From Tremella fuciformis (Eukaryota; Basidiomycota; Tremellomycetes; Tremellales; Tremellaceae): a stretch of 64,000 nt of DNA. Made by a program: the position numbers and the translations under genes. The stretch spans positions 62,001 to 126,000 of the forward strand of contig CP136500.1 in NCBI GenBank assembly GCA_032768795.1, given 5' to 3'. The notes under the pieces are model-generated. The model was not told where the DNA came from and did not search any database. It saw only the letters and a program-made list of their open reading frames with translations. How positions within the stretch are numbered: the stretch's first letter is position 1; the number at the start of each line of letters is the position of its first letter. This document shows positions 18,281 through 48,530 of this stretch, piece by piece.

Positions 18281-19258
18281 ATGGTCAGGACTCGGGAAGA
18301 CAGTGAGTGTTATCGACGAAGTTCGGCGAGGCTCGTCCAGCGGTGGCTGACAATGCAGTTGCTCGCGAGACCGCAGCACGGGCCGCGGCGGGCTCGAACA
18401 ACTCGGCAGGGGTCGAGGCGGTCGCGGATGCCGACGCTGGCGGCGGCGAGGCGACTGCGGCGATTGTCGCCGCGTTGGGCGAGACGGCTGGGCTCGGCGA
18501 GGCCGACGACGAGGACAATGAGGAGGGCGGCGAGGCTGCCGAGGAGGACGACGAGGCAGACGAGGAGCTCAACGAGGCAGACGAGGAGCTCGGCGAGGAG
18601 TATGAGGAGCTCGGCGGCGATCTCGAGGGGGACAAGGTTGGGGCCGCGGAGGAGATTATTGCTGAAGTTTGAGAGGAGATGGCGGCGTTGCGAGACGAGA
18701 TCTGAGGAGTGACTCGGCCTCATCGGGAGGAGGATGACGACGGTGAGTCCGTCTCGCTGAGCTTGTCGAGCTTTGCTGATCAGCAGAGTCGGACGAAGTG
18801 GCGTCTCCGCGGCGGAAGCGCAACCAAACTCGGCGAGAGTCGTTTATCCGAGTGAGTGTGTCTCTAGTCTTGGCGAGCTTGACTGATGTCGCTAGTCTCG
18901 GTACCCCGACGTCGAGCAATCAGCAGAGCCGTGCCAGCGGTGTCATAAGGACGGGTTCACATGCTTGGTGTCGCCGGGCCTCGTCAAATGTCGAACCTGT
19001 ACCTCGGGCCCGTGCAGTTTCAGGTCCGAGCGTGAGCGAGGATCGGCAAGGCCTAACGAGGGCGGCGGGCTCGGCGAGCTTGCCCCGAGTGAGCTCCCGG
19101 CGATATTTGCTTTGGTGGGTTACATTCGTGAAGCAACCGAGCCCGGGCTACGCTCGTTCTTGATTGCTGAGCTTCGGCGTAGGACTGGCCTGGGCCCGGA
19201 GGCTTTCGGTCTGCAGCCTGACACCAGTCCGGAGGCAGGTCCTTCTGGTTTGTCGTAG
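18281..19258 (+). pseudogene. Antisense Cys6 gene of G2, two nonsense mutations
   Basis: Four exons fit: 18281-18302, 18359-18742, 18787-18851 and 18896-19258, with introns of 56, 44, 44 nt (all GTGAGT donors; CTGAC or CTGAT branch sites). The joined frame would be 277 aa: an Ala-rich then Asp/Glu-rich acidic region (residues about 30-110), a basic PRRKRNQTRR patch, the six-Cys motif C-x2-C-x6-C-x8-C-x2-C-x4-C, and a helical C-terminus similar to that of the element D gene. Two in-frame TGA codons (18670, 18703) break it; each is one C to T change from CGA. The layout matches the other elements: it starts near the 3' LTR and converges on pol. Confidence 0.7.
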
Positions 19259-19310
19259 ATCTTGTATGTAGCCTAGTTGTAGCTCATGCAGTTTTCTGCC
19301 CTGGCGAGAC

Positions 19311-20758
19311 TCAACGATTCTCAGCGAGCCTCGGCTTCCCGGGGTTTCTTTCGTGAAACTCGTTCATGAGTTCTTGACATCCGTCCAGGTTCTCTGCAGT
19401 CTCCCAAGTTGTTGACCCATCCGTGTGTTCATAGCCTTCCCACGCGACAAGGTACTCGACTCGGCGACCTCGACGGCGCGCGTCGAGAAGCGCCGCGACT
19501 TCGTAAGAGTGGCCGCGGTCTGGGTCAGACTCGACAGGCGGCGGCGGGTCGTAGTTCTGTCCTTCGAACGTCGGCGGGTGGAACGGCTTGATGAGCTTGA
19601 TGTTGAACGTGTCGTGGACGTTCAGCGAGTCTGGCAAGGCGAGCCGAAAGGCTTGGGGACCTGCAGTCCCAACAAACGATCTGATAGGGTCCTCCGTGGC
19701 GTACGTCGAGTTTCTTCGAGGGTCGGCGAGTCTTAATGTTTCTCAGCGAAAGCATAACGAGGTCTCCGATCTTGAATTCCGGCGGTTCTGCTCTTCTCCT
19801 ATTGAATCCCTTGGCGTACTTCTTGTTTGCCTCAGCGATGTTCCGTCTGCATAACTCATGCACTTCCTTCAGCACGGCGACCTTCTTGCCACTGAGTCTT
19901 CCTGGCTCCTCCCCTACTTCGGCGACGTCGGCGACATCGTCGACCCATTGAGGGGAGAAGCCGAAGTTGGCGAAGAACGGCGAGACTTTGGTGGCCGAGT
20001 GGTCCCAGTTGTTATAGGAGAACGAAGCTCGCTGAAGGAGTGACGACCAGTTGTCCTGCTGAACGTTGCAGAACGCCCTTAGGTATTGCTTGAGGACTTG
20101 GTTGACGCGCTCGGTTTGACCATCCGTCTCTGGATGGAAGGCCGCCGAGAGTGAGAGCTTGATACCGAGAGCCTCGGTGAGCTTAGCCCACAGCTTGCTA
20201 GTGAACTTCGAGCCACGGTCGGAGACGATGGACCTCGGCAAGCCATGCTGGCAAACGACGGAGTCGATGACGAGGTCGGCGAGCCCTACCAAGGATAGGC
20301 GAGTGCTCGTCGGAATGAAGATCGACCACTTGGTCAGCCGGTCGACGGCAACTAGGATAGAGTCGTGCCCGTTGGAAAGGGGAAGAGGTTCAATGACATC
20401 CATCGAGATCGAGCTCCAAGGTCGTTCAGCGATCTCGAGCGGGAGCAGGTAGCCTTTGGCTCGCTGATGGTCTGGCTTGATTTGCTGACACACGGCGCAT
20501 CCCTTGACGTACTCGCCGACATCTGGGCGAAGCCCTAGCCAGGTGTAGTCACGCTGAAGGAGCTGCACCGTCTTCGCCGATCCTGGGTGACCGGCTAGGA
20601 GCGACTCATGGCGGGTCCTGAGAGCTTGAAGGCGCTCGGGACCCGGCGAAAGGTAAAGTCGCCCGTTGATACGGAGCGAGCCTTGGCAAGAGTAGTCGAA
20701 TACGGCGGGCTTGGCGAAGCCCAACCGCTTCCGCAGAGCTTCCAGCTCTGGGTGAGTG
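19311..20758 (-). pseudogene. G2 Pol: integrase and chromodomain, frameshifted
   Basis: From 20758 leftwards the frame encodes the linker after RNase H, an HHCC module (RHESLLAGH..CAVCQQ), and an integrase core with SMDVIEPLP, SDRGSKFTSKLW and TDGQTERVN. It then shifts frame near 19640-19680 and continues as LNVHDTFNIKLIKPFHPPTF and a chromodomain (EYLVAWEGYEHTDGSTTWE), stopping at 19311. The fusion with the reverse transcriptase half at 25818 is exact once Copia C1 and one CTAGA copy are removed. Confidence 0.88.
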
Positions 20759-20763
20759 CTAGA

Positions 20764-21081
20764 CGACGGAATCTTAGCTCTGAGGCAATGGGATTCCGGT
20801 CACCTGTTGCCCGCTCAGCACTTGCTATGAGTGATGCATTCGGACTTACCTGTTGCCCGCTCAGCACTTGCTATGAGTGATGAGGAGGGCAACAGGCGGC
20901 GGCATTCTACAAGGTCGTCGAGGGTGTCGGCGTTATAAGCGGAGTTATCGTTGGTGGCAGCTTCTCTGCCTCGTCGAGGGTGAACCTCGTCGAGGCACAA
21001 CCTCGTCGAGGATCGAGTAGCCTCGACGAGGTTACTCGAAGATGAGTCAAGCTCATGTGAGCGTGCCACCTATTTCCGTCG
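20764..21081 (-). repeat. C1 3' LTR
   Basis: 318 bp with perfect 8-bp terminal inverted repeats CGACGGAA/TTCCGTCG. It contains a 49-bp internal duplication (CCTGTTGCCCGCTCAGCACT occurs twice) that is absent from the related LTRs at 46583-46851 and 30700-30920, and a cluster of CCTCGTCGAGG palindromes. Confidence 0.92.
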
Positions 21082-21093
21082 CCTCCCCTCGCG
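21082..21093 (-). other. C1 polypurine tract
   Basis: GCGAGGGGAGG on the minus strand, abutting the 3' LTR between the polyprotein stop (21101) and 21081: the expected plus-strand primer position. Confidence 0.65.
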
Positions 21094-21100
21094 AGCATGT

Positions 21101-24100
21101 CTATTGACTCATCTGCCCTCCTTCTCCTTGTCTTTCCAATCCCAGTAACTGCCGGAGCTGTCTTGTCTTCTCGGCCGAAAGGGTCTTGGTCAGGATGTCG
21201 GCTCGATTGCTGTCCGTTGGTGTGTATTTGAGCTCAAGCAGACCACCAGCTTGATGCTCTCGTATCCACTGGGCTCGCATGTCGAATGCTTTGTTCAACT
21301 TGAACCCGTGTTGATGTTTGGCCAGTTGAATGGCCCCATTGTTGTCGTTGTAGATGGGCACTGCTCCATCTATGCCTAGGTCGAGGTCGTTCAATAGTTG
21401 CCTGAGCCATATTGCCTCTTTGCCCGCTTCTGTCGATGCAAGGAGCTCTGCCTGTGTCGTCGACAGTGCGACTGTCGGTTGTCGCCTGCTTTTCCATGAT
21501 ACGATGCCTCCGTAGGTGTTGAAGATATAGCCAGTTGTTGATCGGCGTGTATCGAGACATCCACCCCAGTCTGCGTCCGCCCATCCTAACAGTGCTCGTC
21601 TCCCTCCATGAGCATCGAAGGTGAGAGCAAGATCCGAGGTTCCTCGAAGATACCTCAGTAGGTGCTTTGCGGCCCTCCAATGCGCGAGTGACCATTTGCT
21701 TATGAAGCGACACAGCAGTGAGGCTGCGTAGGCGATGTCGGGTCGGGTGATAGTGGCGATATAGAGGATTGACCCGGCGAGTGCAGGAAACGGTTTGTCT
21801 CGAGCCTCCTCGACCTCCTTTGGCGTAGCCTCGACGAGCTTTGCGTCTGGCAAGATTGTCTTGCAGGCTTTCCCGGTTTCACCGAAGCGTTGAAGAACTG
21901 CCTCGATGTAGTGCTCTTGTGATAGGTACATCTTCTTGTTTGGCCTGTCTCGGTAGATGTTGATACCGAGGAAGTATGAGACCGGTCCTTGATCCTTGCA
22001 CTCAAGTTCCTTGTCGATCCTCCGCTTGATCTCGTCGATTGTTGATCGATCGTTGCCGGCTATGAGCATGTCGTCAACATGGACTGAGATCATGCACCGC
22101 TTGTGTCCTTGTTGCAGCGAGTAGATGCATGGGTCCGCTAGGGTCGGTTTGAAGCCTAGCTCCCGTAGGAACTCGTCGAGGCGCTTGTTGAACAAGTGCG
22201 GTGATTGTCGGAGACCGTATAATGACTTCCGGAGGTGCAGGACGTGATCGGCAGCGATGTCGCTACCTTCTGGTGGCTCGATGAAGATGTCCTTGTCGAT
22301 ATTGGCCTTGAGGAATGCGCCGATGATGTCGATTTGGTCGCATTCCCAGTCGAGGTAGTTAACGATGGTGAGGAATAGGCGGAATGAAGACTTGTGGGTG
22401 ACCGATGCAAAGAGTTCGTCGAAATCCCGTCCTGAGACTTGTTGGAACCCTCTCACGACGAATCTAGCCTTGTATTGGCTTGCTTTGCCCGTGTCCCCGT
22501 CGATTTTGCGGGTGAAGACCCATTTGCCTGTAAGGGTGCGGTGGTTCTCTCTGGGGACTTTCTCCCACACTCCGTATTTCTCCATCTTTGTCATCTCCTC
22601 GTCCATGGCCCTGTTCCACTCCTCCCAGTCTGCAGCTCGACGAGCTTCGGTGTATGACTGAGGGTTGGTGAGTGACTGGGCTGATAACGCGTGCTCGATG
22701 GCTACTCGGTTATAGTCCATGTCGATGTCGTGCAGAGGGTGATGACTGGGCTCTTGACCTGCTAGTCTCCCGGACCGTCTTGGTTCATCTGCATCGGCCT
22801 CTATGGGCTGGTTTAGCCGACGATCTGGATCCTCTGGTCCGTCGTCGGGGTTCGGTTCTGGGCTCGGTGCATCCTCTCGAATGTATTCGTTGGCCCAGCC
22901 TCTCCCTTGCCTTGGCACGGCTTGGGGAGGTATGTCGTCCATCTCTTCCCTTTGTTCCTCTTCTTCTGGTGCCTCCCCTGCCTCGACTATCTCGTTCAGC
23001 TCGATTGATGTATCGTCATCCTCGTCGAGGCTCGTCGATGCTTGTCGAGGTTCAGGTTGAGGCGGCTCCAGAATCCGTCGCGGTTCATCTGAACGTGGCG
23101 TTGTCTTCTTGCCCGTGATGAATGTAACGTCTCGACTTGCGATGACCCTGTTGGTTTGGGTCAACACCTTGTAGCCCCAGCTCCCTTCTGTGTATCCCAG
23201 CAGTCGACCGCATTGACCCCGCTCGTCGAGCTTTGATGCGGGGCTCACAACTCGATAGATGCAGTGTTGGCCAAATGGCTGCATTCCTTCATATCGTATG
23301 TCAATGTCGTGATGTGGTCGAAAGAGAGCGACAGGGATTTTTCCTTGGGAGTCTGGTAGCCTGTTTCTGGTGAAGACTACATATCGTAATGCGTCGACCC
23401 AGAATTGACTTGACAGGTTCGAGTCCGCGAGACATGTGCGGATGTCATTGAGGATGGTGAGATGGACGCGCTCGACTCGACTGTTTTGATTGTGTGCGTC
23501 GGTCGGCGTGAGGGTATGCTCAATTCCCTTGCTTTTACACCAGTGGCTGAATTCCTTGCTCGTGAACTCGCCTCCTTGGTCTGAGCGGATGGTCTTGACC
23601 GTTCGATCAAGCTGATTCTCTGCCAACTTGATGTAGTCTTGTAGTGCTTCGGCTGCATCCGACTTCTTCTTGATTGGTATAGCTTGCACAAATTTGCTAT
23701 GGTCGTCGTAGCAGGTGAGGAAGTATTGGAAGCCTTCTCTCGACTGGACGGTCGCTGGTCCCCATAGATCGACTGATACCTCGACGAGGGGTTTGCCGGC
23801 TCGACGCGGGTTAGGTAGAGATGCCGAGCGCGTTGCCTTTCCTTTCAGGCAATCCATGCATTCGACTCTCCGAAACAATCCCGTCCACTTTGCGCCTAGC
23901 TTCCCCTCTTTCCCAAGCTCCCAGACCTTCCTCATGTTCGAGTGACCTAGGCGCTTGTGCCAGGTGAGGAGGCGGTTGTCTTCGGCTTCAGTGTTTTCTC
24001 TTGCCTGAAGTGCTCGGTGAATGCGCGAGGTGGTGCGTACCGGTGTGTCGTCTACAACCCATAGGTTGCCGAGCTTCTTGCCCCGGAGGATGACCTTTCC

Positions 24101-25402
24101 TTTCTCGACCAATGTAGCCGAGTCACTCGAGAAGCGCCAATGGGTCCCTGTGTATGGACCGAGGCGCTGTGTGGAGAGGAGGTTGTGCGTGAATGAGGGG
24201 ACATAGAGGGCGTTCTTGTACCATACGTTCTCGAATGTCAGGCGGCCGGAGTGTGTAGCCTCGACAATTGACCCATCTCCGATCTGGATTTTGATGGGCT
24301 TGTCGAGCTTGGTGAGGTGGGAGAGGAGGTGTTTGTCCTTGATAAACGGACTTGTAGCACCGCTGTCGATGATGATGGAAGTGGAGGGAAGGTTATCGTG
24401 GGCGTGCAGTGCGATCTCTGTCGCATAATAGCCTTCCTCCTTTATCTCCCTCGACGAGCCTCTCTTGGCCTCACTTGATGAGTCGTCTCCTGACTCGCTC
24501 TGCTCCCTCGCCTTCATTCCCTTCCCCGCTTGTCCTCCTTGCTTCTTCCTCCTGTCTGCTTCCTTTGCCGACCTCTGCTCCTGGATGTGCTTCGGCACTC
24601 CAATCACTTTCCAGCACTCATCTGTGGAGTGCCTCCCCTGATCCGGATGGTGGATGCATCTCTTGCCTGCCGGTTTTGGTAGAGATTTGCTGAGCATCCC
24701 CATCTCGTTTACGCTCTCGCCCTTTTGTTGACGTCGGCGGTGTTCATCGGCAACCCTATCGATAACCTCGTCGAGATGGATCTTGTTCGACGAGGTCCCT
24801 GAGTAGAAGGTCGATGCGAGGAGGCCGTATGAGGACGGTAGGCGACGGATGGCGGCGTATGCGCCGATCTGGTTGGCGAATTGCTCAAGGGTGAGCTTGG
24901 AAGTGATGGCGGAGGAGGTGATTTCGGCCAACTGTGACCGGATAGCAGTGAGATGAGGTTCGGGGTCCTCATTCTCTGGGATGGTCTCGCCAAATATCGA
25001 TGACCATAATTCGGCTAGGCGAGATCCGTTATCGGCCCCATATGTGGTGACCAGGTGATCGTAAAGCCCCTTCGGTTGAGGATTCTCGAAGTCGATCAGG
25101 CTCGAGGGAAGCTTATTTTGGACAGTCTCTGTCAGACTGCCGTAGAGAGTGGAGAGGGCGGTGGACTGCTCCTTCTCATGCTCGTATAGAGCAACTGCTC
25201 TCTTTGATGTCTCGGCTGCTGTGGCCGGACTTGACACTGGATATCGAGCCTCGACGAGTGCTCGGATCGCTGACGCGTCTTTGGTGATGTGGGGGACAAG
25301 GCCGGCGGATCCGAGGACGACTCGAATCTCGCGCACCCACTGGGCGTAGTTGTCGCGCCCATTGAGCTTGCGCTCTTCTTTCACCGTCTGCACAGATGGC
25401 AT
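21101..25402 (-). CDS. C1 Gag-Pol polyprotein (Ty1/Copia)
   Basis: A single 1,433-aa frame. Order: Copia-type Gag (residues about 1-240, YAQWVREIRVVLGS); a Cys/His segment (CIHHPDQGRHSTDEC); aspartic protease IIDSGATSPFI; GAG-pre-integrase module (WHKRLGHSNM..C-x2-C); integrase core (VDLWGP, IRSDQGGEFTSKEF, NSRVERVH); reverse transcriptase (TYKAR-like QYKARFVVRGFQQ, catalytic SVHVDDMLIAG); and RNase H (GWADADWGG, SRRQPTVALSTTQAELLA, NDNNGAIQLA). No frameshift is needed between gag and pol, as is usual in single-ORF Copia elements. The ATG at 25402 lies 97 bp inside the 5' LTR. All catalytic residues are present, so the copy may be active. Confidence 0.95.
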   Translation of the reverse strand: MPSVQTVKEERKLNGRDNYAQWVREIRVVLGSAGLVPHITKDASAIRALVEARYPVSSPATAAETSKRAVALYEHEKEQSTALSTLYGSLTETVQNKLPSSLIDFENPQPKGLYDHLVTTYGADNGSRLAELWSSIFGETIPENEDPEPHLTAIRSQLAEITSSAITSKLTLEQFANQIGAYAAIRRLPSSYGLLASTFYSGTSSNKIHLDEVIDRVADEHRRRQQKGESVNEMGMLSKSLPKPAGKRCIHHPDQGRHSTDECWKVIGVPKHIQEQRSAKEADRRKKQGGQAGKGMKAREQSESGDDSSSEAKRGSSREIKEEGYYATEIALHAHDNLPSTSIIIDSGATSPFIKDKHLLSHLTKLDKPIKIQIGDGSIVEATHSGRLTFENVWYKNALYVPSFTHNLLSTQRLGPYTGTHWRFSSDSATLVEKGKVILRGKKLGNLWVVDDTPVRTTSRIHRALQARENTEAEDNRLLTWHKRLGHSNMRKVWELGKEGKLGAKWTGLFRRVECMDCLKGKATRSASLPNPRRAGKPLVEVSVDLWGPATVQSREGFQYFLTCYDDHSKFVQAIPIKKKSDAAEALQDYIKLAENQLDRTVKTIRSDQGGEFTSKEFSHWCKSKGIEHTLTPTDAHNQNSRVERVHLTILNDIRTCLADSNLSSQFWVDALRYVVFTRNRLPDSQGKIPVALFRPHHDIDIRYEGMQPFGQHCIYRVVSPASKLDERGQCGRLLGYTEGSWGYKVLTQTNRVIASRDVTFITGKKTTPRSDEPRRILEPPQPEPRQASTSLDEDDDTSIELNEIVEAGEAPEEEEQREEMDDIPPQAVPRQGRGWANEYIREDAPSPEPNPDDGPEDPDRRLNQPIEADADEPRRSGRLAGQEPSHHPLHDIDMDYNRVAIEHALSAQSLTNPQSYTEARRAADWEEWNRAMDEEMTKMEKYGVWEKVPRENHRTLTGKWVFTRKIDGDTGKASQYKARFVVRGFQQVSGRDFDELFASVTHKSSFRLFLTIVNYLDWECDQIDIIGAFLKANIDKDIFIEPPEGSDIAADHVLHLRKSLYGLRQSPHLFNKRLDEFLRELGFKPTLADPCIYSLQQGHKRCMISVHVDDMLIAGNDRSTIDEIKRRIDKELECKDQGPVSYFLGINIYRDRPNKKMYLSQEHYIEAVLQRFGETGKACKTILPDAKLVEATPKEVEEARDKPFPALAGSILYIATITRPDIAYAASLLCRFISKWSLAHWRAAKHLLRYLRGTSDLALTFDAHGGRRALLGWADADWGGCLDTRRSTTGYIFNTYGGIVSWKSRRQPTVALSTTQAELLASTEAGKEAIWLRQLLNDLDLGIDGAVPIYNDNNGAIQLAKHQHGFKLNKAFDMRAQWIREHQAGGLLELKYTPTDSNRADILTKTLSAEKTRQLRQLLGLERQGEGGQMSQ

Positions 25403-25481
25403 GACGGAGGACCACTTCGAGGCTGGCGGTGCGTAGGCAGGGTCGACGAGTTTGTTGACGCGTTCTATCTACCGCGACTTG

Positions 25482-25499
25482 TCGAAGGAGACGTTACCA
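25482..25499 (-). other. C1 primer-binding site candidate
   Basis: On the minus strand TGGTAACGTCTCC follows the 5' LTR directly. The TGG start fits pairing with a tRNA 3' CCA end. The tRNA is not identified. Confidence 0.55.
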
Positions 25500-25817
25500 C
25501 GACGGAATCTTAGCTCTGAGGCAATGGGATTCCGGTCACCTGTTGCCCGCTCAGCACTTGCTATGAGTGATGCATTCGGACTTACCTGTTGCCCGCTCAG
25601 CACTTGCTATGAGTGATGAGGAGGGCAACAGGCGGCGGCATTCTACAAGGTCGTCGAGGGTGTCGGCGTTATAAGCGGAGTTATCGTTGGTGGCAGCTTC
25701 TCTGCCTCGTCGAGGGTGAACCTCGTCGAGGCACAACCTCGTCGAGGATCGAGTAGCCTCGACGAGGTTACTCGAAGATGAGTCAAGCTCATGTGAGCGT
25801 GCCACCTATTTCCGTCG
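25500..25817 (-). repeat. C1 5' LTR
   Basis: 318 bp, matching the 3' LTR including the 49-bp internal duplication. Followed by CTAGA (25818-25822), then G2 pol resumes. Confidence 0.92.
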
Positions 25818-26740
25818 CTAGAAAGGGTCTGGGACCCTTGGTCGAGATGACCTAGGATTGGCCGAATGACGGGGTCCTCGAGGAGACGCTCGGCGAGCGT
25901 CGTTCCCTCGGGCAAGGCGGGCACGTGTACTCTGACGGCGCGGAGGAGGTAGGCGAGATTCGACGAGACCTCGGCGGACTCGTCAAGTGAGGGAAGGGCT
26001 TGGAGGAAGTTCTGGGGTTGCTCGACGAGCGAGCCTGGGGAGTAGGAAGGATTCCGGGAAAGTGCGTCGGGGAGCTCGGCGAGCTTGCCGGGCCTGTAGA
26101 CGATCTTGAAGTCAAACCCGGCGAGGATCTCAACCCATCTAGCTTGCCTTGGGTTGAGTTGCCGAGGTTCCATCCAGTAGGTGAGGTTCAAGTGATCAGT
26201 GATCACTGTCGTATGAACCTGGGCAAGGAGATGTTGTCTTCGGCAAAACGCGTGAACCACAGCGAGGAACTCCTTTTCTGTGGTGGTGTAGTTCAACTCG
26301 GCGTCGGTCAACGCGCCTGACTCGATAGCGACGGGGTGCTCGTTATCCTCGGCGTCTTTCTGCGAGACAACGAAGCCCCATCCATAGGCGGATGCGTCGG
26401 TCTGCAGGATCGCATCCCGAGTTGGGTCGAAGAAGGCGAGGATCGGCGAGCGCTGCAACCTCGACTTGAGCTCGTCGAAGGCAGCGTGTTGCCCTTTGCT
26501 CCACGTGAATTTGACGTCCTTTCTAGTGAGACGGTGCAGCGGCCCAGCTACCTTGGCGAAGTTCGGTACAAATCGCCAATAGTAGCTAGCCATGCCGAGG
26601 AATCGTCAAACTTGGCGAACATCGCGGGGAGGGGGAAAGTTGACAACGCCCTGCACATAGGATCCGTCGGCCTCGACGCCCTTGCCGGAGACGATGAACC
26701 CAAGGAACTTGACTGACCGTTGCTCAAAGTGGCACTTTGA
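25818..26740 (-). pseudogene. G2 Pol: reverse transcriptase C-end and RNase H, one stop
   Basis: Begins inside the reverse transcriptase (KCHFEQRSVKFLGFIVSGKG) and continues through SYYWRFVPNFAKVAGPLHRL, the RNase H landmarks DASAYGWGFVVSQ and TEKEFLAVVHAF, TDHLNLTYWM and the YRPGKLAELPDALSR linker to the Copia insertion point. One TGA at 26606-26608 interrupts it, in a codon explained by CGA to TGA (TCG context). Palm-domain catalytic motifs are lost with the 5' truncation. Confidence 0.88.
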
Positions 26741-26928: not shown

Positions 26929-27284
26929 GCAGCGCATACAAGCTTGAGCTGCCCAGCACAATGAAGGTTCACCTGGTCTTTGCGGTGGACCGACTCAAGG
27001 CTTTTGAGCCACCTACTCTCCCAGGACAAACATCCAACCCGCCTGGGCCAGTGGAAGCTGACAAGGAGGGAGAATCGTTTGAGGTGAAAAGGATTATCGA
27101 CTGGAGGAAGAGGAGAGGACGGCTGGAATACAAGGTGGAGTGGCTTGGGTATGAGGGAACGCATGAGGCAACAATGTGGGAGGCGGCAGGGAACATTGAT
27201 GGAGCCTGGGCAAGCATTGAGAGCTTTCACAAGGAGAACCTGGAGAAACCAGGAGGCAATCAAGCAGGAACCAGGCCTAAGTGA
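26929..27284 (+). pseudogene. Element C Pol: last integrase segment and chromodomain
   Basis: The translation YKLELPSTMKVHLVFAVDRL, FEPPTLPGQTSNPPGPVE, then the chromodomain EYKVEWLGYEGTHEATMWEA and FHKENLEKPGG is nearly the same as the C-terminus of element D pol (40217 onward), so C and D are one family. All earlier pol sequence is missing. With the antisense pseudogene 27933-29554 and the LTR 29892-30291 this makes the 3' half of a plus-strand element. Confidence 0.88.
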
Positions 27285-27303
27285 AGTAACAACAGAGTAG
27301 AGG

Positions 27304-27847: not shown

Positions 27848-27932
27848 ATAGGCTGAGAAGCAGTGAGCTTAGAGAGACATACATGTGGGCAAGAACAAGA
27901 GTCAAGACGTTAAGAATCAAGACAAGCTACGG

Positions 27933-34821: not shown

Positions 34822-34856
34822 CTCTGCCCGCCCCTCTGAAATTGAGCTCCTACGAG

Positions 34857-38165: not shown

Positions 38166-38499
38166 CTCTGCCCACCTTTGAAGTCGAGCTCCTGCGAGAC
38201 ACGCGCTATCTCCATCCACTCCAGCCTTCTCCCTCGTCATCGTCAAACACACCCGCATTGCCGATCCAAGAGTCGAGACAGCAGTCGAATGACGTCGCTT
38301 GTAACGGAAGCGAAACTCTGGCGACAAGTCGTCGAGCGGTCGTCAAGGAAACGGAGAAAGGACTGCCAATCCGTCGTCGAGGTAGCCTCGTGTTGCTCGA
38401 GGGCGTCGCCATGTCGCGGGGTGCTCGAAAACGACATAAACAGAGGGGGGAGAGGGCGTCAGCGCTCTCATCCCCACCATCAACCTCAACTCACGCCTC

Positions 38500-40093
38500 A
38501 TGCCCTGGCTACACCTCTCAAGCCCAAGAACACTCGACGCATCCACCTTTACCACAAGCTCGCCCCGTCCATCTCCTTACATCCTCTTCGACAGCAGTTC
38601 TCTAGACAACGCGCTGTCCTATCCGTCTTCTACAACCCCTACGGCAACTATAGACGAGGCATCTTCTGACTCAGACGGGTCAGTAACACTCTGCACAGAA
38701 ACCGATTCTCGATTTGAGACTGTCAGTGTCGACTCGATGTCCAACCCATCCTCATCTCGTGCCGGCACCGCCCAACCCGAAGGCACCCCCTTCCCATCCC
38801 CCACGCAAGCCGCCTCGACTGCCGACATCCCAACAGTCGACGAGGCTGTTCCACTCCCCGCCGTCGGAGCCATCCCACCGCCCGACGAACAAGCTGCGGA
38901 GCTACTCAGCGATGCGCCTGCCGCGGCTGTCCCACAGGAAGAGGGGGAGGAGGAGTTGGATGTAGAGGCTGGTGTGGACGAGCTAGCGCCCGGCACTCCA
39001 GCATCGTCGAGCTTGTCCGAGGAGGAGATTCCTCCTAGCCGGCGATTTGACCCACGTAATGCCTCCGAGGAGGCATACTATGTGAAGAAAGGATGGGGAC
39101 TGCCGGTCCCAGAGTCAGAGCCATTGGACCGTTCGTTCTTTGGTGAGTCAAGTCTGCAAGTTTCGCCCAAACTGATCAGTAGGCTCCCACTACCCCGACC
39201 GAGGACAGCGGGGATACAACAGATCTCTGACATGGGCCCGGGTGAGTATTGTCAGCTGTTTAGTATCCTCTGACATTCAGCAACAAGCGGGTTCACGGCC
39301 AATCCGGGTCCTGGAGGGAGATGAGCGATGCGAGGCATGTGTCGCGGACGACCTCCCGTGTCGCATCGTCGAGGAAGGCAAGAAAGTGAAGTGCTTAACG
39401 TGCGGCACCCTGGCCTGCTCGTTCGGCACGGTAACTCCTGGCCCCTCGTCATCGGCACGGCGCCGTCAGGTGTCCTTCGCCCGCGGCACGTCTCCCTCGC
39501 CCGTCACGCCCGGCGCCCGACGCTCCGGCCAACTCGCTGCAGCCCGGTCCACGTCGACGACCTTGGCTGCTGGCCTCGCCAACATCGACCTAGCGGGCAC
39601 GGTCAAGGCTTCTGGGAAGAAAGGGAAGGGAAAGGGAAGAGAGAAACGTCGGGCTCGCTCTTCGTCCTCGCCCATTTTGTCACCGTTGGCACACAAGAGG
39701 CTCCGCTCGGGGCATCCTACCTCGACGAGTAGGCTGAGCCCGCTCCCTCCCCCTGCTCCGGAACCGATGGATGACGCTGGCACGGGTTGGCTAGGGGATG
39801 GCGGACTCGATCCTGTACCTCAAGCCGGACCATCAAGGACTTCTCACTGGTCTCCACCCCCTCCCATGATGCAGCTACCGCCGCCAACACCACCACCACC
39901 CGCTCCAATGACCTCGACCTCTGCCCCAGACCGCCGGTGGCAAGAGTTATTTCAATTGAGTCACTTCGCTCGCCGAGAGACTCAAGCACCGATGCGTACC
40001 TACTTTATCTCACGGGCGCGAGACATCGCAGGTGACTTGGGTGTTAACTTCGACGAGTTGACACTTGGGGAGTTTCTCGAGGGAACATCTTGA
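38500..40093 (+). CDS. Antisense accessory gene of element D, Cys6 protein, 504 aa
   Basis: Exons 38500-39142, 39183-39241 and 39281-40093; introns 40 and 39 nt, both GTGAGT donors with CTGAT or CTGACATTCAG acceptors. The joined frame is open for 504 codons. Residues 1-210 are Ser/Thr/Pro-rich then acidic (EEGEEELDVEAG). The 20-codon middle exon carries HYPDRGQRGYNRSLTWAR. The last exon has C-x2-C-x6-C-x10-C-x2-C-x4-C, a basic KKGKGKGREKRRARS stretch resembling a nuclear signal, a Pro-rich linker and a helical C-terminus (RRWQELFQLSHF..FISRARDIAGDLG). It starts 334 bp from the 3' LTR, has a CATAAA box at 38435, and its stop is 123 bp from the pol stop, facing it. The element C copy shares its structure and the E copy shares most of it. 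Function unknown; a nuclear DNA-binding role is inference. Confidence 0.75.
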
Positions 40094-40216
40094 CCGTAGC
40101 TTGTCTTGTCTCTTACTTCTTGCTTCTTGCTTTTGCCGTCTTGACTCTTGTATCTTGCCGCATGTATGTCTCTCACCGCTCACTGCTTCTCAGCCTATGC
40201 TCTGTCGCTGCTTCAC

Positions 40217-43200
40217 TTAGGCCCTGGTTGCTGCTTGGCCTCCTGGTTTCTCCGGGTTCTCCTTGTGGAACTTCTCAATGCTCGCCCAGGCTCCATCAAT
40301 GTTCCCTGCCGGTTCCCATGTCGTCGCCTCATCCGTTCCCTCATACCCGAGCCACTCCACCTTGTACTCCAATCGCCCTCTCCTTTTCCTCGAGTCGATG
40401 ATCCTCTTCACCTCGAATGATTCCCCTTCCTCGTCGACTTCCACAGGCCCTGGCGGATCGTATGTTTGTCCTGGGAGCGTCGGTGGCTCGAATACCTTGA
40501 GTCGGTCCACCAAAAAGACTGGATTGACCTTCATTGTGTCGGGCAACTCAAGCTTGTACGCGCTGCCCGCCTTTGCGATGATCCTGTAGGGTCCACACCA
40601 TTTCAAGTCGAGCTTCTTCGAGGGTCGTCGAGTTTGTATGTTTTCCATCGACAGCATCACTTGGTCCCCTACCTTCATCTCGGGGGCCTCCTGATGCTTG
40701 GCATTATACCCTCTAGCATATGCTTCATTGGCGAGCTCGATGTTCTTCTTGCACAACGCGTGCACCTCCTCGAGCGAAGCAAACTTCTCGACGACTGATG
40801 GGATCTCTTGAGCCTCTCCCTCGACGACGATGGATTCTGCCCACCTTGGGGCGTAGCCGAAATTTGCTTCAAACGGCGTCATCATGATTGCCGAATGCAT
40901 TGAGTTGTTGTACGCGAACGCCGCCCGCTGGAGAAGGGTAGCCCAGTTGTCTTGCTTGTAGTCGCAGAAGATCCTCAGGTATTGCTCGAGAGCTTGATTT
41001 GTCCTCTCTGTCTGCCCATCCGTCTGAGGGTGGAAGGCCGTCGAGAGGCTGACCTTGATGCCGAGGGTGTTGCACATTGCCCCCCACAGCTTGCTGGTGA
41101 ACTTGCTTCCTCTATCCGAGATGATGCTCGTGGGTAGCCCATGCTGCGCTACCACATTGTCGAGGACAAGGTCGACCAGGCCTGCCGTGTTGAGCCGAGT
41201 TGTCGTAGGGATGAAGATAGCCCATTTGGTGAGCCGGTCGACGACGACAAGGATCGAGTTGAAGCCCGAGCTGGCGGGAAGCTCCTCGATGAAGTCCATG
41301 GATATCGAGGACCATGGCCTGTCAGCAATCTCCAGGCTGTGTAACAGTCCATGGGGACGCTGACGCACCGGTTTGCACCGCTGACACACTGCACACCCTC
41401 TCACATACTTCTCCACATCCCGTCTTAGTCCCAACCAACAGTACTCCCTCCTAACCAGCTCCAGCATCTTCGCAACTCCAGGATGTCCAGCCAATTGCCC
41501 CTCGTGGTGATCCCGCATGACCTTTACTCTTGCCTGTTTGATGTCCGGGATGTAGAGTCGCCCGTTGATCCTGAGTAGGCCATCCTCGTCGAACTTGAAC
41601 TTGCTTGCCTCGTCGAGGCCCAGTCTTTTTGCCAGTGACCATGCCCTTGGGTTCTCCTCCTTCGTAATCCTCTTCTCCCCTCTTAACTCCCCAAGCTCCT
41701 CCAATGTATCCTTCAAGTCCTCATCTCCGCCCTGCCCTTCCTTCAATTCTCCTCGAGACAATCCCCTCAATTCTCCTTCCTCGTCTTCTTCTCCTTCTTC
41801 GTCTTCTCCTCCTTCTTCGTCTTCCACCAGCGCTCGCAACATGTAGCCCAGACTGGACGTGGCCGTACTCTCCTTGTCGAAGCTTGGCAGGGCTTGGACT
41901 AGCTCTGGTTCTGCGTCCTTGCCCTGTGGAATATAGTCGGCTCTCCTCGATAATGCATCCGGGTAGGCTGCCTTGGTTCCTGGTTGGTAGACGATCTTGT
42001 ATGAGAAGCCAGCTAGGGTATCCACCCATCTCGCAACTCGAGGGCTGAGTTTCTGTGGCTCCATCCAGTATGTGAGGTTGAGATGGTCGGTCAAGATCGT
42101 CGAGGTAACCTGCAGAAGGAGATGCCGACGCCGCTTGAAGGCCATGACGATCGCGAGGAACTCTTTCTCCGTGGTGGTGTAGTTGAGCTCCGCTCCTGAG
42201 AAGGCACCCGACTCGACTGCAACAGGGTGTTCTTGTCCTGTCGAGGAGTTCACCTGCGAGATGATGAACCCCCATCCGTAGACCGAGGCGTCTGTCTGGA
42301 TGATAGTCTCGAACGTCGGGTTGAAGTGAGCGATCACTGGTGCTTCGCTCATTCGCCTCTTGATCTCCTCGAACGCCCACTGCTGTCCATCTCCCCAATG
42401 GAAGTCGATATCCTTCCTTGTGAGGTGCGAGAGAGGCCCAGCGAGCTTGGAGAATTGCGGTACGAAGCGTCGGTAATAGCTCGCAAGACCGAGGAACCGT
42501 CGAGTTTCGTGTAGGTTTCGAGGGGTAGGGAAATTGCGAACACCCTCGACATACCCACTGTCAGCCTCGACCCCCTCGTGCGAGATGATGAAGCCCAAGA
42601 ACTTCACCTTAGTCTGCTCGAACTCCGACTTAGACGCCTTCACAAACAGTCCAGCCTTCCGCAACGCCTCCAGCACCGCCTTAGTCAATCTCCTAAGTTC
42701 CTCGAGGTTCTCCGCATGGATGAGAATGTCGTCGATGTAGATGATGACCCCTTTTCCCAGGAATTCGTGCAGGACTTCGTTCAAGAAGTGTTGGAACACG
42801 CTCGGCGCGTTCCGAAGTCCGTCTCGCACCACCAGTGACTCGAACATTCCTCGAGGGGTACGGAATGCTGTGAACTTCTCATGTCCAGGAGCCATTCGGA
42901 GCAGCTGGTATGCTCCCGGCAAGTCGAGCTTCGTGTAGTATCTCGACTTGGCTAGGTCGTCGGTCACTTGGGATATCAGGGGTAGTGGGTATGCGTCCGG
43001 TACCGTCATCTCATTGAGCTTGCGGTAGTTGACAACCATTCTCAGTTCTCCTTGGGCTTTCTTTGGTACGAAGAAGCTTGGTGAGCCATAGGGCGAGTTC
43101 GATGGTCGAATCCTTCCAGCCTTTCTCTCTCAATCCAGCAGCTTGTCGAGCGCATCCATCTGATCTGGGTTCAGGCTATACAGCGGGGCCACTCGTAGGT

Positions 43201-44296
43201 CGGCTCCAGGTTTAAGCGTGATGCGTAGGTCGTATTCTCTACTTGGAGCAAGCGTCTCTACCCCTCGTCGAGGATGAAAGACCTCGAGGTATTCGTGATA
43301 TCGCTCCGGGACAAGATGTTGCACAGCTGCTTCCTCTTCTGGGCTGAGTTCGTACTTGTCATAGTCGGGTAGAACGTCAATATATGCCTCTTTCTCGCTC
43401 AACTCCTCGGTCACTGTGCCGCATAGCTCGACTGTATTTCCCTGGTTCTGCTCCCATCGGTTGAATGGGAGCTCAATGCTGTTCGCCTTCGATCGCCTGC
43501 TCCTTCGTTTACTTTGTCGCCTTTCCGCCTTGATCTCCAATGTTCCTGATAGTCGCGAAACCTCGTCGAGGTTCTCTGATCCGTTCTCCTGGTCCGTCTC
43601 TTTCCCGCCTGTCCTCTTCCTTGTCGCCTTCTTCCTTCCAGCATCCAATATCACACCGTTCTCCTTCATCCAGTCATACCCCAACACTACGTCCGCTCCT
43701 GCCAATGTTGTCACACCTAACTCCTCCCTTCCTTCCCCGCCTAGGACTTTTACTGTTCCCGTCACTCCCTTTTCTACCTGTCCTGCCGAGCTTGGTTTAC
43801 CGTCAAAGAGGAGGAGTTGGCGGGGTCGAGGAAGTGGGTAGGAGGAGATGTGATGCCGTTCCACAAACAATGAGTCGACGAAGTTACCAGTGGCCCCGGT
43901 GTCGAGCAGCACCTTCACCCCGTCGACTTGATTGACGCTTCCTGACACGACAGCCTGCTCTCTGCCTAAACAGCAAACCTCACCACGAATGCATGCCTCC
44001 TCATCACTAGCTATTCCGTCCGTGGCAACCAGTGCCTTCTCATCTTTCGCTTCTTCGTCGAGGTTTGGGATTAAAGGTGATTGTGATACAGGGGGGTTGG
44101 GAGGTGAATGGGGAGGGGAGGTGGCCGAGAGGATGTCTTGATGGGGCCGCTGGACCTCTCGTATGTTCTCAGCGTCCCTCAAGCTTTTGGGTCCTCCTGC
44201 TTGACGATAGGTCGGCTGGGTGCAGGGCTGCCTCGAGGAACGGGAGGTCGTTGCCCGGGAACACAGGCATTGGCGAAGTGTCCGACCCCGCCGCAA
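40217..44296 (-). pseudogene. D Pol with one nonsense codon
   Basis: One frame from the gag overlap to the stop at 40217: protease VLLDTGATGNF; TGA at 43130-43132; reverse transcriptase (MVVNYRKLNEMTVPDAYPLP, YIDDILIHAE); RNase H (TDASVYGWGFIISQ); an acidic insert (EDEEGGEDEEGEEDEEGEL); HHCC; integrase (SMDFIEELP, SDRGSKFTSKLW, TDGQTERTN); and a chromodomain (EYKVEWLGYEGTDEATTWE). The TGA is one C to T change from CGA in TCG context. Around 42790-42850 the block that reads YRVMPFGL in G1 is FESLVVRDGL, which suggests two compensating frame errors. Not functional as it stands, but only lightly damaged. Confidence 0.88.
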
Positions 44297-45147
44297 CGGT
44301 AGCAGAGACGCTGCTCGTTCCTCCTCTGGCGTTCCGCTGGGTCGAGTCCTCCAGGAGGCGTTGGTCTGTAACCAAGCGGGCCACTAGGGGCTGGTGAAGG
44401 GCGCGCCGACGGGATTGGCGGGAGAGGGCGGTAGGTCGACGAGGCAGGGGGAGGAACTTGTCCCCGGGTAGTCGTAGCTGGCCGTCGTCGAGCTTCTTCG
44501 TACCGCTTGACCTCGGCCTTTTTCTCGGCCTCCCTTGCTCTGAGCCGGTTGTCCAACTTGATGACATAGGACTGAAGCTCTCCGAAGGTCTCCAGCTCCA
44601 CTGTGGTCCGAGCAACCTCGTCTCGAAGATTGTCTGAGAGGCCTTCAAGCGCCCTAGCTCTAGCTTGCTCGTTGGCTTCCCATCCCAAGACCGCCAGGTA
44701 CTCCCTAAGTTTCGCAAAGTACTCTGCCGCTGATCCGGTCTGCTTCAAGTCGAAGTATCGCCTCTGGGCGGTGCCCTTGATGTCGGGATCCCCGAAGTTG
44801 TCCCTCAAGTATCTCGATAGCCTCTGGAAGCTACTGATCTTCTCGTCGAGTTCTTCTCCCGACGCGAGAGGCTGGATAGCGTCTTGAACGAAGCCCCTAA
44901 GGAAGGAGATGGCGTAGATGACTTTGGACTCCTCTGTAAACTTCGAAGGCTGTAGGCAAAAGACGATGTTGCATTGCATGAGGAATCCTTCGAGTTTCTC
45001 CGGCTTAGAGCCATCGAAAGTGTCGGGCGGGTTGGCCTTGGGCTCGCTCGATGATGCGTTGGTTGAGGGAGTGGGTGAATTGGCTCGTCGAGCCTCGATG
45101 GCAACGAGTTGTTGCAGGATCTGAGCGAGGGAAGCCTGATCCGCCAT
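44179..45147 (-). CDS. D Gag
   Basis: 322 aa from ATG 45147 (MADQASLAQILQQLVAIEAR); upstream in-frame ATGs exist but lie close to the LTR. The Ty3-type gag domain (PDTFDGSKPEKLEGFLMQC, FLRGFVQDAIQPL, NFGDPDIKGTAQRR, GSAAEYFAKLREYLAVLGW) is followed by a coiled, charged segment, a Pro-rich linker and one CCHC knuckle, CYRCGGVGHFANAC. Intact. The last codons overlap pol by a -1 shift. Confidence 0.9.
   Translation of the reverse strand: MADQASLAQILQQLVAIEARRANSPTPSTNASSSEPKANPPDTFDGSKPEKLEGFLMQCNIVFCLQPSKFTEESKVIYAISFLRGFVQDAIQPLASGEELDEKISSFQRLSRYLRDNFGDPDIKGTAQRRYFDLKQTGSAAEYFAKLREYLAVLGWEANEQARARALEGLSDNLRDEVARTTVELETFGELQSYVIKLDNRLRAREAEKKAEVKRYEEARRRPATTTRGQVPPPASSTYRPLPPIPSARPSPAPSGPLGYRPTPPGGLDPAERQRRNEQRLCYRCGGVGHFANACVPGQRPPVPRGSPAPSRPIVKQEDPKA
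44185..44191 (-). promoter_or_regulatory. Candidate -1 frameshift heptamer in D
   Basis: On the minus strand the gag codons GAC CCA AAA GCT TGA contain C CCA AAA, fitting X XXY YYZ, one codon before the gag stop. Slipping back one base enters the pol frame (..PKSLRDAENI), which is the frame of the protease. Confidence 0.5.
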
Positions 45148-45309
45148 GTTGTTGGGTGTGCTAGACCGGCTAGCAGGAGGAAGTCGAAGGGACTGTGGTA
45201 AAGCTTGGTGCTCGTGGTTCGGGTTGAGTGATGTCGAACGTCGAGTCTCGGTGGGCATATGCCCCGGGTATGCGTGGTTGTGCGAAGAGGTAGTAGCACT
45301 CTCTGATAC

Positions 45310-45744
45310 TGTCACAATGCTGCGCTCTCCCGTTGGCAGAGGCCCTCTCGCACAATATCAGAGTCAAGGATAAAGGGTAAAGGGGTAGAAACGAGGTTGT
45401 CGAGGTAGGATCCTCGTCGAGGTTGGATCCTCGTCAAGGTTACAAGGTCGTCGAGGTAACAAGGTCGTCGAGGATACAGCGTGACTGCGACTCAGCCACA
45501 CTGCGTGCCACGGAGAGAGTGAGATTGTCAATGATGATCCATGAGACTCAATCAGAGAGTGCTGAAGAACTACGACGGGCGCCCGGGGCATCCTATATGA
45601 CTCTGCGCCTGCTTTCCGTCGTCGCGCGTTCATCCAACGTCTACTCCCTCGTCGAGGTTCTCCAGCCCGAGGTAGGTCACGTGTCGGCCACGTGAGAGGT
45701 GTCGGTCACGTGCGTAGGTCGTCGAGGGCGTGGCCGTCGTGACA
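45310..45744 (-). repeat. D 5' LTR
   Basis: 435 bp, about eight differences by eye from the 3' LTR, mostly transitions at CpG. Confidence 0.9.
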
Positions 45745-46263
45745 TATGCCAAGTATTATGATGCAAAGAGGCGGGAGGCACCGGTCTTGACAGTGGGTGA
45801 TATGGTCATGCTATCAATGGAGAACATCAAGACTTGTCGACCCTTGAAGAAGCTCAACATTAAATGGGGGGGACCATACAAGATCATCGCTAAGCCAGGG
45901 CCATCAACATACAAGCTCGAGTTACCAGCAACGATGAGGGTGCACCCGGTCTTCAATGTCACTCGTCTCAAGCCGTACCACCCAGCCACAATCCCTGGTC
46001 AGACCTACAAGCCGCCACCACCTGTGGAGGTAGATGATGAGGGCCCTAGCTACGAGGTGAAGAATGTTGTCGACTTGAGAAAAAGGGGCAGAAAGGTCAA
46101 GTACCGCGTCGAGTGGGTGGGGTACAAAGGAACGGATGAGGAGACAACTTGGGAGCCAGTGGAGAACATTACTGGTGCTCTCAAAAGCGTCGAGAGCTTC
46201 CACAGGAGGAACCCGGGGAAACCAAGAGCAATACGACGCATGGACTACTGGCGGAGACGATGA
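45745..46263 (+). pseudogene. Element E Pol: integrase C-end and chromodomain
   Basis: Opens abruptly after the D LTR as YAKYYDAKRREAPVLTVGD, then VMLSMENIKTCRPLKKL, KWGGPYKIIAKPG, TFNV-like VFNVTRLKPYHPATIPG and a chromodomain (KYRVEWVGYKGTDEETTWEP), stopping at 46263. The frame is undamaged but the rest of pol is absent. It is the 3' part of a plus-strand chromovirus that continues with antisense gene 46882-48530 and LTR 49620-50725. 46264-46582 shows no gene. Confidence 0.87.
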
Positions 46264-46582
46264 TCTGGATCGAGATTTGTCACCCAAGCTGAGTCCTATT
46301 CCTGCAATTCCATGTACAACAAGAACGACAAGGCATAATGAACGAGAGCTACAAGAACCATGTACAATATTCACATTCGGGAGCCCGCCACTGGCACGTT
46401 GTCGAACATTGGCCCTACCATCGCCCGCAGGTCCAGCCCGAGGAGATTCGCGTGTCGCCTTGCCTCTGCAAAGTGGTAGACTCCGTCACCTGGATTGGAC
46501 TGCGCCAGGGTGACATGGTGTTGAAGGACACCAACATCGAGTCTCGTCAAGGGTGTCCACGGCAGTCCAACCTGCGCGGACG

Positions 46583-46851
46583 CAACGGAAATAGGTGATC
46601 CGCTCACATGAGCTTGACTCATCTTCGAGTAGCCTCGTCAAGGCACACACATCCTCAACGAGGTTGTGCCTCGACGAGGTTCATCCTCGACGAGGCAGAG
46701 AAGCTGCCACCAACGATAACGCCGCTTATAACGCCGACACCCTCGACGACCTTGTAGAATGCCACCTGTTGCCCTCCTCATCACTCATAGCAAGTGCTGA
46801 GCGGGCAACAGGTGACCGGAATCCCATTGCCTCAGAGCTAAGATTCCGTCG
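46583..46851 (+). repeat. Solo Copia LTR (C1 type), target duplication GGACG
   Basis: 269 bp in the opposite orientation to C1, ends CAACGGAA..TTCCGTCG, flanked by GGACG at 46578-46582 and 46852-46856. The perfect duplication confirms that this LTR family ends at CGACGGAA rather than TG..CA. It lacks the 49-bp internal duplication of C1. Confidence 0.92.
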
Positions 46852-46881
46852 GGACGAGCGGACGGGAGTCGCCACGGGTGG

Positions 46882-48530
46882 TCAAACCAAGCTGCGAAGC
46901 CGTTTGACAAAGGCGGGCGGGGCGACAACGGGCGAGTCGATGGAGGTCAACGAGGAGGGACTAGCACCCGCAAACGTCACGGTGCGACAAGCACAGGGAG
47001 TCAAGGACGAGCCGGTAGGCCTGCGAGGACTCGGACTGGGATGGAATGTACAACCCGAGGCAGTGCCACAGGTGTAGCATTTCACCTTTGGTCCGGCCCC
47101 GTCGAGGACTCGACATGGCAGATCGTCCGCTTGACACCTCTGGCAACGGCGGCGACCGGTGAGGGTGCAGATAGGTTGCCCCTTTGCCTGGGCCTGTATA
47201 ATCAGCGAAGGAAACGATAGGGGGGCAATGTACGAGGGCCCAAGGCAGTGTTGGTTTGAGCCCCTACCGGATGACGGGTAGTATGGCCCTGGGGATGAGC
47301 GAGGGCCTTCTTGAGCGACGGACATACCGAAGAATGCCTGATCCTGGGCGTTCTTGCATCGAACTTGAGTGCCAGACTTGAGTAGCCTTGACGAGGCTTC
47401 ACTCCCTCCCTTGCTCGCTTCCAATCCCTCATCCTCCTCGGCATCCCCCTCCAGCTCATCCTCCGCTATGCTCCCCTCTGAGCCTGCGTCGTCCTCGGCG
47501 TCCGGTAGAGCGTCGGCAACTTCCGTTACCCCAAGGTATCGGGTGGATGCCGAGCGCAGGCGGGAGGAGTACATGCCGCTAGGAGGCGATGTACGGCGGC
47601 GCTTAGAGGCGATGTACGGCAGCGCTTAGAGGCGGGAGTGGACAGAAGGGGAGGAAGGGGAGGAGGAAGCGTCGGAAGAGGAGTGTTTCTGGGCAACTCG
47701 GGCGACTTGATTCGTTGACGACAACGAGTGATGCCCACTGGGGTTGGAGCACGAGAGGCGGGCGGAGTGGACGGAAGGGGAAGGGGGTACGGCGGATGGA
47801 TTGATGGGGGAACCGGTCCCACCACCTTGATAGGACCGAACGGACCGTGGTGAGGGCGGGTCGAACGGAAGGGAGAGCGCCTCTCGGTATCGCCCTTTGC
47901 CAGCAAAGGACGATACCGAGTGCTGGGAGGATGTAACAATGCCAATAACCTACCACATAGCTATTGCACTGTCCAGCAAATACCACTGCACCAAAAGGGT
48001 CACGATAACCCGAGTCTGACCGAGACTCGCGGTTTGTGGTACATATAGGCTTGCAAGGTGGCGGTGTCACGTCCGACGTGACAGAGGAGGAGGAGGGCGC
48101 AGGGGTGGAATGCCCACTCGAGGTTGACAAGGTAGCCCAGCTACCTTCTCGAGCAACGACATTGCCCTGGTACTCACGGATCTTGGCGTGGAAATCCGCA
48201 ACGGAGCGGAGGACGGCGGTTCGACCTAGCCATCAGTCCGGACAGCACGCGTAGGGATGCGCCCACCGCTTGGAACGGCACTAGCCGCGCTTGACCACAC
48301 GAGTTTGTCAACGTTGTCATCGACACCCTTGGTGGGTGTAGGCTCTGCAGAGCGAGGTCGGACAGCCCATGTGTGTCCCGGAGGGGAGAGCGGGGGCGGA
48401 CAGCAAGGGGGAGAGAGGCGGCGTTGTGGGGACGGGAGATGGGGATTTGGTCATGGCGACCAGGCGGAGAGGGTTGCCTCTCACAACAAGCTTGAGGGTG
48501 GGGTCGGCAGGGTCGGAGAACATGTAAGAC
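46882..48530 (-). pseudogene. Antisense Cys6 gene of element E, degenerate
   Basis: The best-supported part is the last three exons: one ending at 47338 (..QAFFG); a middle exon 47288-47234 (GPYYPSSGRGSNQHC..), matching the 20-codon exon of the D gene; and the last exon 47193-46882 with C-x2-C-x6-C-x11-C-x2-C-x5-C (CQRCQADDLPC..CYTCGTASGC). Upstream are Ser/Pro-rich and acidic stretches, a possible intron at about 47945-47915, and coherent frames back to about 48530 (VRGNPLRLVAMTKSP). Damage: a TAA at about 47634 in the long exon and a middle-exon donor displaced by one base. It lies antisense beyond the E chromodomain. The N-terminal limit is uncertain. Confidence 0.6.

Follow-up and report, generated by a model that had tools for sequence, protein, structure and literature searches.

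A convergent six-cysteine gene between the chromodomain and the 3' long terminal repeat in six chromovirus families of Tremella fuciformis

Why should several retrotransposons of one fungal genome carry, behind their polyprotein genes, a further gene running in the opposite direction, and is it one inherited gene or several? The question is raised by a stretch of 64,000 nucleotides from the basidiomycete Tremella fuciformis (contig CP136500.1 of assembly GCA_032768795.1, positions 62,001 to 126,000), hereafter the window, which corresponds to C11:62001-126000 of the 28.14 Mb, 11-contig genome. An initial annotation of the window described, behind the chromodomain of elements named G1, G2, C, D and E, a convergent gene starting near the 3' long terminal repeat (LTR) and encoding six spaced cysteines (Cys6), here called the cargo gene. 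Inspection of the whole genome shows that in six chromovirus families a convergent Cys6 gene follows the chromodomain and precedes the 3' LTR. The window copies are lettered after the initial annotation, by our own matching (B, 3916-11412; G1, 18281-19818; C, 26931-30291; D, 37731-45744; E, 45745-48523), whereas families H, N and Q were added from outside the window and K stands for locus L033, an E-family copy.

The D element illustrates the arrangement, its cargo gene (38500-40093) being placed between the end of pol (40217) and the 3' LTR (37731-38165). The features of D, followed by those of the other cargo-bearing copies of the window, are as follows.

37731-38165, no strand given: D element 3' LTR, matching the 5' LTR at 98.2% identity (435 nt)
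38435-38440, plus strand: TATA-like CATAAA of D, 65 nt upstream of the cargo ATG and outside the LTR
38500-39142, plus strand: D cargo exon 1
39183-39241, plus strand: middle exon of the D cargo gene, 59 nt long (SHYPDRGQRGYNRSLTWAR), with an alternative acceptor possible 3 nt earlier
39281-40093, plus strand: D cargo exon 3, with Cys6 at 39329-39418, the C-terminal segment and the stop TGA at 40091-40093
40217-43129, minus strand: D pol frame (reverse transcriptase, RNase H, integrase, chromodomain)
43130-45357, minus strand: D protease and gag frames
45310-45744, no strand given: D element 5' LTR
3916-11412, plus strand: B element, with LTRs at 3916-4582 and 10746-11412, gag at 4631-5782, pol at 5734-9282 and chromodomain at 8779-9249
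9732-10314, minus strand: B cargo gene, ATG at 10314, two modelled introns, Cys6 exon 10070-9732, TATAAA at -96
18281-19258, plus strand: G1 cargo gene, ATG at 18281, exon 18896-19258 with Cys6 (CQRCHKDGFTC...KCRTCTSGPC) and a C-terminal helical segment, the G model being taken from locus L035
19329-19818, minus strand: G chromodomain and integrase C-terminus, in two frames in this copy
26931-27257, plus strand: C chromodomain
27933-29554, minus strand: C cargo gene (family D), ATG at 29554, Cys6 exon 28751-27933
29887-30291, minus strand: D-family LTR, upstream of the C cargo gene
45745-46233, plus strand: E chromodomain
46882-48523, minus strand: E cargo gene (family E/K), ATG at 48523, Cys6 exon 47229-46882, the middle of this copy having no continuous model

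The features that define chromoviruses (reverse transcriptase, RNase H, integrase and a C-terminal chromodomain) were found in D by Pfam, which also recognized the chromodomain of E, and in the other families through similarity to D and E. In the window, tblastn located chromodomain stretches at five places, one of them being G, split across two frames; the convergent Cys6 gene was found behind those of G1, C, D and E, and also in B, but no "G2" could be found. Because C and D form a single family, G, C/D and E make the three families that had been counted initially as a minimum. A motif scan of the window for Cys6 recovered G1, D, E and B, with C being recovered through similarity instead; in C the second Cys is replaced by Arg (CEAR), in agreement with the cysteine loss reported for this copy. 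Across families the pattern reads C-x2-C-x6/8-C-x8-11-C-x2-C-x3-6-C.

Searches of the genome with the D, E, G and B cargo genes as queries, with the matches merged into loci, gave 83 loci (28 D/C, 35 E/K, 7 G, 11 H and 2 B), which were compared with the 150 scored matches among 216 candidates returned by a chromodomain query. A convergent chromodomain was present within 3 kb of 71 of the 83 cargo loci and a chromodomain in the other orientation at none of them, in the test of strand and position that the initial annotation had proposed; none was scored at the remaining 12, one of which (L038) contains a convergent chromodomain-like frame on reading. Among the further families, which had given no cargo match before, the most abundant, N, defined from locus L042 (pol frame of 1508 aa), also carries a convergent Cys6 gene. 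With the L042 cargo as query 22 copies were found in the genome, 20 of them with a convergent chromodomain, at 230 bp. Since 71 of 83 loci are convergent with none otherwise, and 20 of 22 in a family from outside the window, the arrangement is not one of chance. Altogether, similarity identified 105 cargo loci: at 91 a convergent chromodomain lies no more than 3 kb away, at none is there one in the other orientation, and at 14 none was scored. The gap between cargo and chromodomain matches is nearly constant within a family, at 148-157 bp for all but one of 25 D loci and 230 bp for each of the 20 N loci, and in 19 of the 20 D-family loci read a D-type LTR follows beyond the cargo, L032 being the exception. 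Viewed from the chromodomain side, cargo is present at 69 of the 72 best matches of the D/E/G/H clade, at all 20 assigned to N and at two of three in B; with the single Q match these are the chromodomain matches covered, the 54 others of the 150 lying outside them. Locus L044, picked for a weak match (E 0.02), has a Cys-rich gene, again convergent, whose first loop is longer, and probably represents a seventh cargo-bearing family, Q; its query retrieved itself and three weak matches, two of which are B-type cargo genes.

The cargo proteins of D/C, E, G, H and N appear to be one family, related beyond their cysteines. In a leave-one-family-out profile test against 1000 shuffles with fixed cysteines, the scores of the rows of these families were reached by no or one shuffle. 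Profile-profile comparison joined N/G/H to K/E/D/C with E 4.7e-6, and the N cargo query gives weak matches to G cargo, with E 0.003 genome-wide and 6e-5 in the window. Moreover, in a comparison of eight copies, cargo and chromodomain identities correlate at Spearman 0.76 (13 of 5000 label permutations). The position of B is equivocal: one of two B-type rows was reached by 147 of the 1000 shuffles and the other, marginally, by six, and the B-type profile matched the two groups with E 0.027 and 7e-4. The proposal of a single inherited gene family is thus upheld for five families and left undecided for B, and the helical C-terminus that B and D were thought to share is not established, because homology of B to the others is not. 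That B does not clearly join the other families is also what could be said for a different origin, in which distinct elements separately captured unrelated host zinc-cluster genes. This we hold to be highly improbable, given that place and strand are the same in every family, that five families are related beyond Cys, and that no cargo locus is near any of the 123 scored Zn_clus matches that served as the host comparison set (none of the 83 D/E/G/H/B loci lies within 1.5 kb of one, and the closest to N and Q cargo is 9.9 kb away).

Gene layout is similar among the families and the frames are open. Models taken from natural copies comprise 504 aa and two introns in D, 556 aa and three in K, 277 aa and three in G (L035), 367 aa and six in N, with two introns in B. 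The 16 predicted introns of these five models have consensus sites (15 GT-AG, one GC-AG), which suggests that the cargo transcript would be spliced. A short exon precedes the Cys6 exon in D (59 nt), E-type L033 (56 nt), G-type L035 (65 nt) and N-type L042 (63 nt); the peptide of the D exon recurs in C, and the L033, L035 and L042 exons occupy the same place as in D, in keeping with the common exon structure noticed at first. An exon-2 match of B to other families was dropped, as its frame does not join the Cys6 exon. Upstream of the ATG, at -65 to -121, a TATA-like box of the form [TC]ATAA[AG] occurs in five of six families (D, K, N, B and G), with a chance expectation of about 3% per 100 nt, pointing to a putative promoter of the cargo gene.

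The cargo genes are under purifying selection. The ratio of replacement to silent divergence (dN/dS) falls between 0.05 and 0.30 in all eight pairs: 0.05 in G (the G1 copy versus L035), 0.18 in D/C, 0.20 in B (silent sites saturated), 0.26 in K/E and in L010/E, 0.27 in D/K (saturated), 0.29 in K/L010 and 0.30 in H. In the five cargo pairs counted, changes were always most numerous at the third codon position. Two chromodomain pairs gave 0.11 and 0.12.

From these observations it seems somewhat probable that the cargo is a chromovirus accessory gene, inherited by several families of this one fungal genome, whose protein regulates the transcription of its own element. In the model, the gene's own promoter, located within the element beside the 3' LTR, would drive a transcript antisense to the element RNA, which would be spliced and then translated. 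The introns could have been kept through the RNA intermediate because the gene is convergent, since in the genomic RNA they would be present as their complements and unspliceable. The predicted protein would consist of a long low-complexity N-terminal part, the residues of the short exon, a six-Cys core (probably coordinating two zinc ions) and a C-terminal helical segment; it would enter the nucleus, bind DNA of its own element family and tune gag-pol transcription. Zinc binding, a dimeric state, the nuclear location, the DNA target and the sign of regulation are all predictions of this model. A quite improbable alternative is that the antisense RNA itself is the main product, limiting copy number through double-stranded RNA or promoter interference, with the protein being secondary. 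The transcript would indeed be complementary to the genomic RNA, and an antisense-RNA role has been discussed for plant elements (PMC7264820). Yet purifying selection at the codon level and a conserved Cys6 core would not be expected from a role of the RNA only. The host genome encodes Piwi/Argonaute (best E 1.8e-56) and RNA-dependent RNA polymerase (RdRP) domains, at C1:6108748, C3:1705567 and C5:889099, and so appears to have genes of RNA interference (RNAi); antisense transcription may therefore have consequences, which speaks for this RNA-based explanation.

Several results weigh against the proposed regulator. One copy that is B-type by its pol and LTR (L043), picked because no cargo match adjoined it, has no cargo on reading; it may have been inserted without cargo or have lost it later. 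Family H yielded no gene model in one attempt, and no TATA-like box in the 260 nt examined. With the D core as query, the 94 candidates at E 1 included no relative from outside this genome. In 8000 scored outside sequences an alignment of four families had a single relative, P0001, a sequence from an ENA contig that is near-identical to D exon 1, and one scan of viral contigs for cargo relatives gave nothing. As a control, D pol residues 520-970 matched 6354 of 8000 scored sequences, those named including Kwoniella, Ustilago and Tilletia; the best named match was Kwoniella, in keeping with a basidiomycete genome. Since multi-exon genes are perhaps poorly represented in the searched set, absence of the cargo from other genomes is not demonstrated. 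The palindrome CTCGNCGAG, of which the window has 42 sites against 1.5 expected from shuffles (for example at 37834, 37851 and 20970-21030), is repeated in the LTRs of the D gypsy element and of a copia element and occurs also in G and H loci. As a binding site for the cargo protein it was rejected, being frequent in the copia element, which has no cargo, and missing from those B-type loci that were read; it is possibly a site for a shared host factor, and in part a codon effect (Leu-Asp-Glu).

The zinc-cluster question belongs among these difficulties. Fungal Zn2Cys6 domains have the spacing CX2CX6CX5-12CX2CX6-8C. The first gaps of D, E, G, H and N fit it, with a last gap of 3-5, whereas in B the last gap is 6 and the second gap 8. 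In Cys spacing the core is similar to factors such as GAL4, Pho7, LAC9 and AlcR. Unlike these factors, none of 11 cargo members matched Pfam Zn_clus (PF00172) up to E 10, in a search with HMMER filters on, by which most matches above about 0.1 are dropped. Nor are the matches to PDB sequences clearly above a shuffled control: the core profile gave ten matches up to E 10, seven of them Zn2Cys6 factors that included GAL4, Pho7 and LAC9 (best E 0.044), and a column-shuffled profile with fixed cysteines likewise found GAL4 at 0.044, with five Zn2Cys6 factors in 15 matches, so that the real profile performs hardly better. Among the matches up to E 10 of the sub-family profiles A3, A4 and A5 (two, five and four), no chain was of the Zn2Cys6 type. 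With the control finding GAL4 equally and the sub-family profiles none, little beyond spacing argues for Zn2Cys6. Structure prediction, proposed initially as a check for a Zn2Cys6-like fold, produced for the N exon a low-confidence model (pLDDT 60.6) with two long helices after the core. In the fold searches this model had no match at E up to 0.001; one of them ranked PUT3 tenth with E 2.6, and the 50 matches listed in another included no Zn2Cys6 chain, long helices being dominant. That the cargo protein works like a zinc-cluster regulator seems about as likely as not, and it is not assigned to the Zn2Cys6 family.

The Cys-rich core and basic stretches such as PPRKKGSKGKGKQR in N would also suit a protein that is no transcription factor but binds nucleic acid as a structural or transport accessory, in the manner of nucleocapsid or Rev. 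This is rather unlikely, as the antisense position and the modelled introns uncouple the cargo from the genomic RNA, the D Gag has a CCHC knuckle of its own (just over the Pfam cut-off) and the Cys6 spacing is not that of CCHC.

The cargo may not always share the history of its pol. Silent divergence is greater in cargo than in pol in all six pairs compared (cargo/pol 2.7/0.27 in B, 0.65/0.19 in G, 0.12/0.05 in H, 0.058/0.009 in K/L010, 0.86/0.60 in K/E and 1.02/0.63 in D/C), and replacement divergence in five of six, G being the exception. The B pair is the most explicit case. B and L041 have 98% identity in the pol C-terminus (329 codons compared), with silent divergence of 0.27. Downstream of pol, DNA identity drops to 40-67% through the cargo region; the cargo proteins are 46% identical, with saturated silent sites; and the LTRs could be aligned only in two stretches, one of 303 nt (85% identity) and one of 72 nt (82%). 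Such near-same pol with diverged cargo means that the cassette need not move with its pol. Among B-type elements in general (L041, L043 and window 8200-11412) the pol C-terminus is near-identical and the cargo region diverged or missing. The higher silent divergence of cargo would be best explained by exchange of a 3' cassette, but local mutation differences, or constraint on silent sites of pol, may be an alternative. Taken further, the cargo could serve as a cassette for self-recognition that is open to exchange, like the immunity region of lambdoid phages: each family would have its own cognate regulator, elements with similar pol would swap cassettes by recombination and a newcomer would escape or obey the control of the residents. 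This extension fits the B pair, the excess of silent divergence in six of six pairs and the cassette-less copy L043, and we put it forward as an unlikely possibility.

The same divergence is relevant to the doubtful explanation that the protein counters host control, as a suppressor of RNAi or heterochromatin or as a decoy for host zinc-cluster factors, instead of acting on its own promoter. A cargo more diverged than pol would suit it, and, in a host with Piwi/Argonaute and RdRP, a transcript complementary to the genomic RNA would carry a cost that some return must offset. The uniformly low dN/dS, though, reveals no arms-race excess of replacements, and no family match points to a suppressor.

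Other features of the window are more peripheral to the regulator proposed here.

20763-25818, minus strand: copia element, with LTRs at 20763-21082 and 25499-25818, a 1455-aa pol frame and no cargo seen
34780-35423, no strand given: non-coding 5' flank of an E-type cargo gene, broken off before the ATG

The copia element, whose LTRs are identical across the 300 nt compared, has a part of the G gypsy element on either side and so looks nested. The segment 34857-35423 had been taken for a partial sixth cargo gene; it is 74-78% identical to the stretch from LTR to start codon of the E-type loci L010, L036 and L033 and ends about 80 nt before the position of the L033 ATG, its Cys pattern being a chance occurrence in non-coding DNA. 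Elsewhere in the window there are a direct repeat of 295 nt (58370-58664 and 61077-61371, 2707 apart, 88% identity) and, at 14393-15307, 130-nt repeats with a spacing of 167 as well as 250-nt repeats with a spacing of 257.

How does the proposed regulator compare with known systems? HBZ of human T-cell leukaemia virus type 1 (HTLV-1) is encoded antisense and acts on HTLV-1. Like the cargo protein in our model it is an antisense-coded regulator near the 3' LTR; it differs in being a bZIP protein of a retrovirus with its promoter within the 3' LTR, whereas here the core is Cys6 and the TATA-like box lies outside the LTR. An HTLV antisense promoter is mentioned in PMC7264820. Closer parallels are the antisense accessory open reading frames (aORFs) of plant Ty3/gypsy elements, namely Grande gene23, RIRE2 and Retand TRP28, which represent an extra antisense gene between pol and the 3' LTR, present in most copies and with a proposed DNA-binding or regulatory role (PMC7264820, PMC11963269). 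The Grande aORF has its own promoter (PMC7264820, PMC11963269), as predicted for the cargo; in contrast, TRP28 is another domain and Retand belongs to a non-chromovirus lineage. The cargo differs from the plant cases in its fungal host, its Cys6 core, its several modelled introns and in being common to chromodomain families. In fungi, Boty/brtn of Botrytis cinerea is a chromodomain gypsy element reported to have a further gene, antisense and located between pol and the 3' LTR (Zhao 2011, as cited in PMC7264820, PMC8365987 and PMC4227169); it is one element group of an ascomycete, and the likeness is one of description, not of protein sequence. An "add. ORF" of unknown function appears for fungal Gypsy elements in a figure legend of Novikova 2010 (PMC2864245), a resemblance drawn from text that gives no strand, motif or families. 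The literature searched, mostly short of full texts, contained no shared Cys6 antisense gene of fungal chromoviruses. With antisense accessory frames known from plant elements and from Boty, the cargo can be viewed as a variation on a known theme. With its six or seven families and about 100 copies, the T. fuciformis genome combines a protein core common to them, a cargo-less copy and apparent cassette exchange, so that the question whether LTR elements carry a control of their own transcription or copy number becomes testable by comparison and simple biochemistry.

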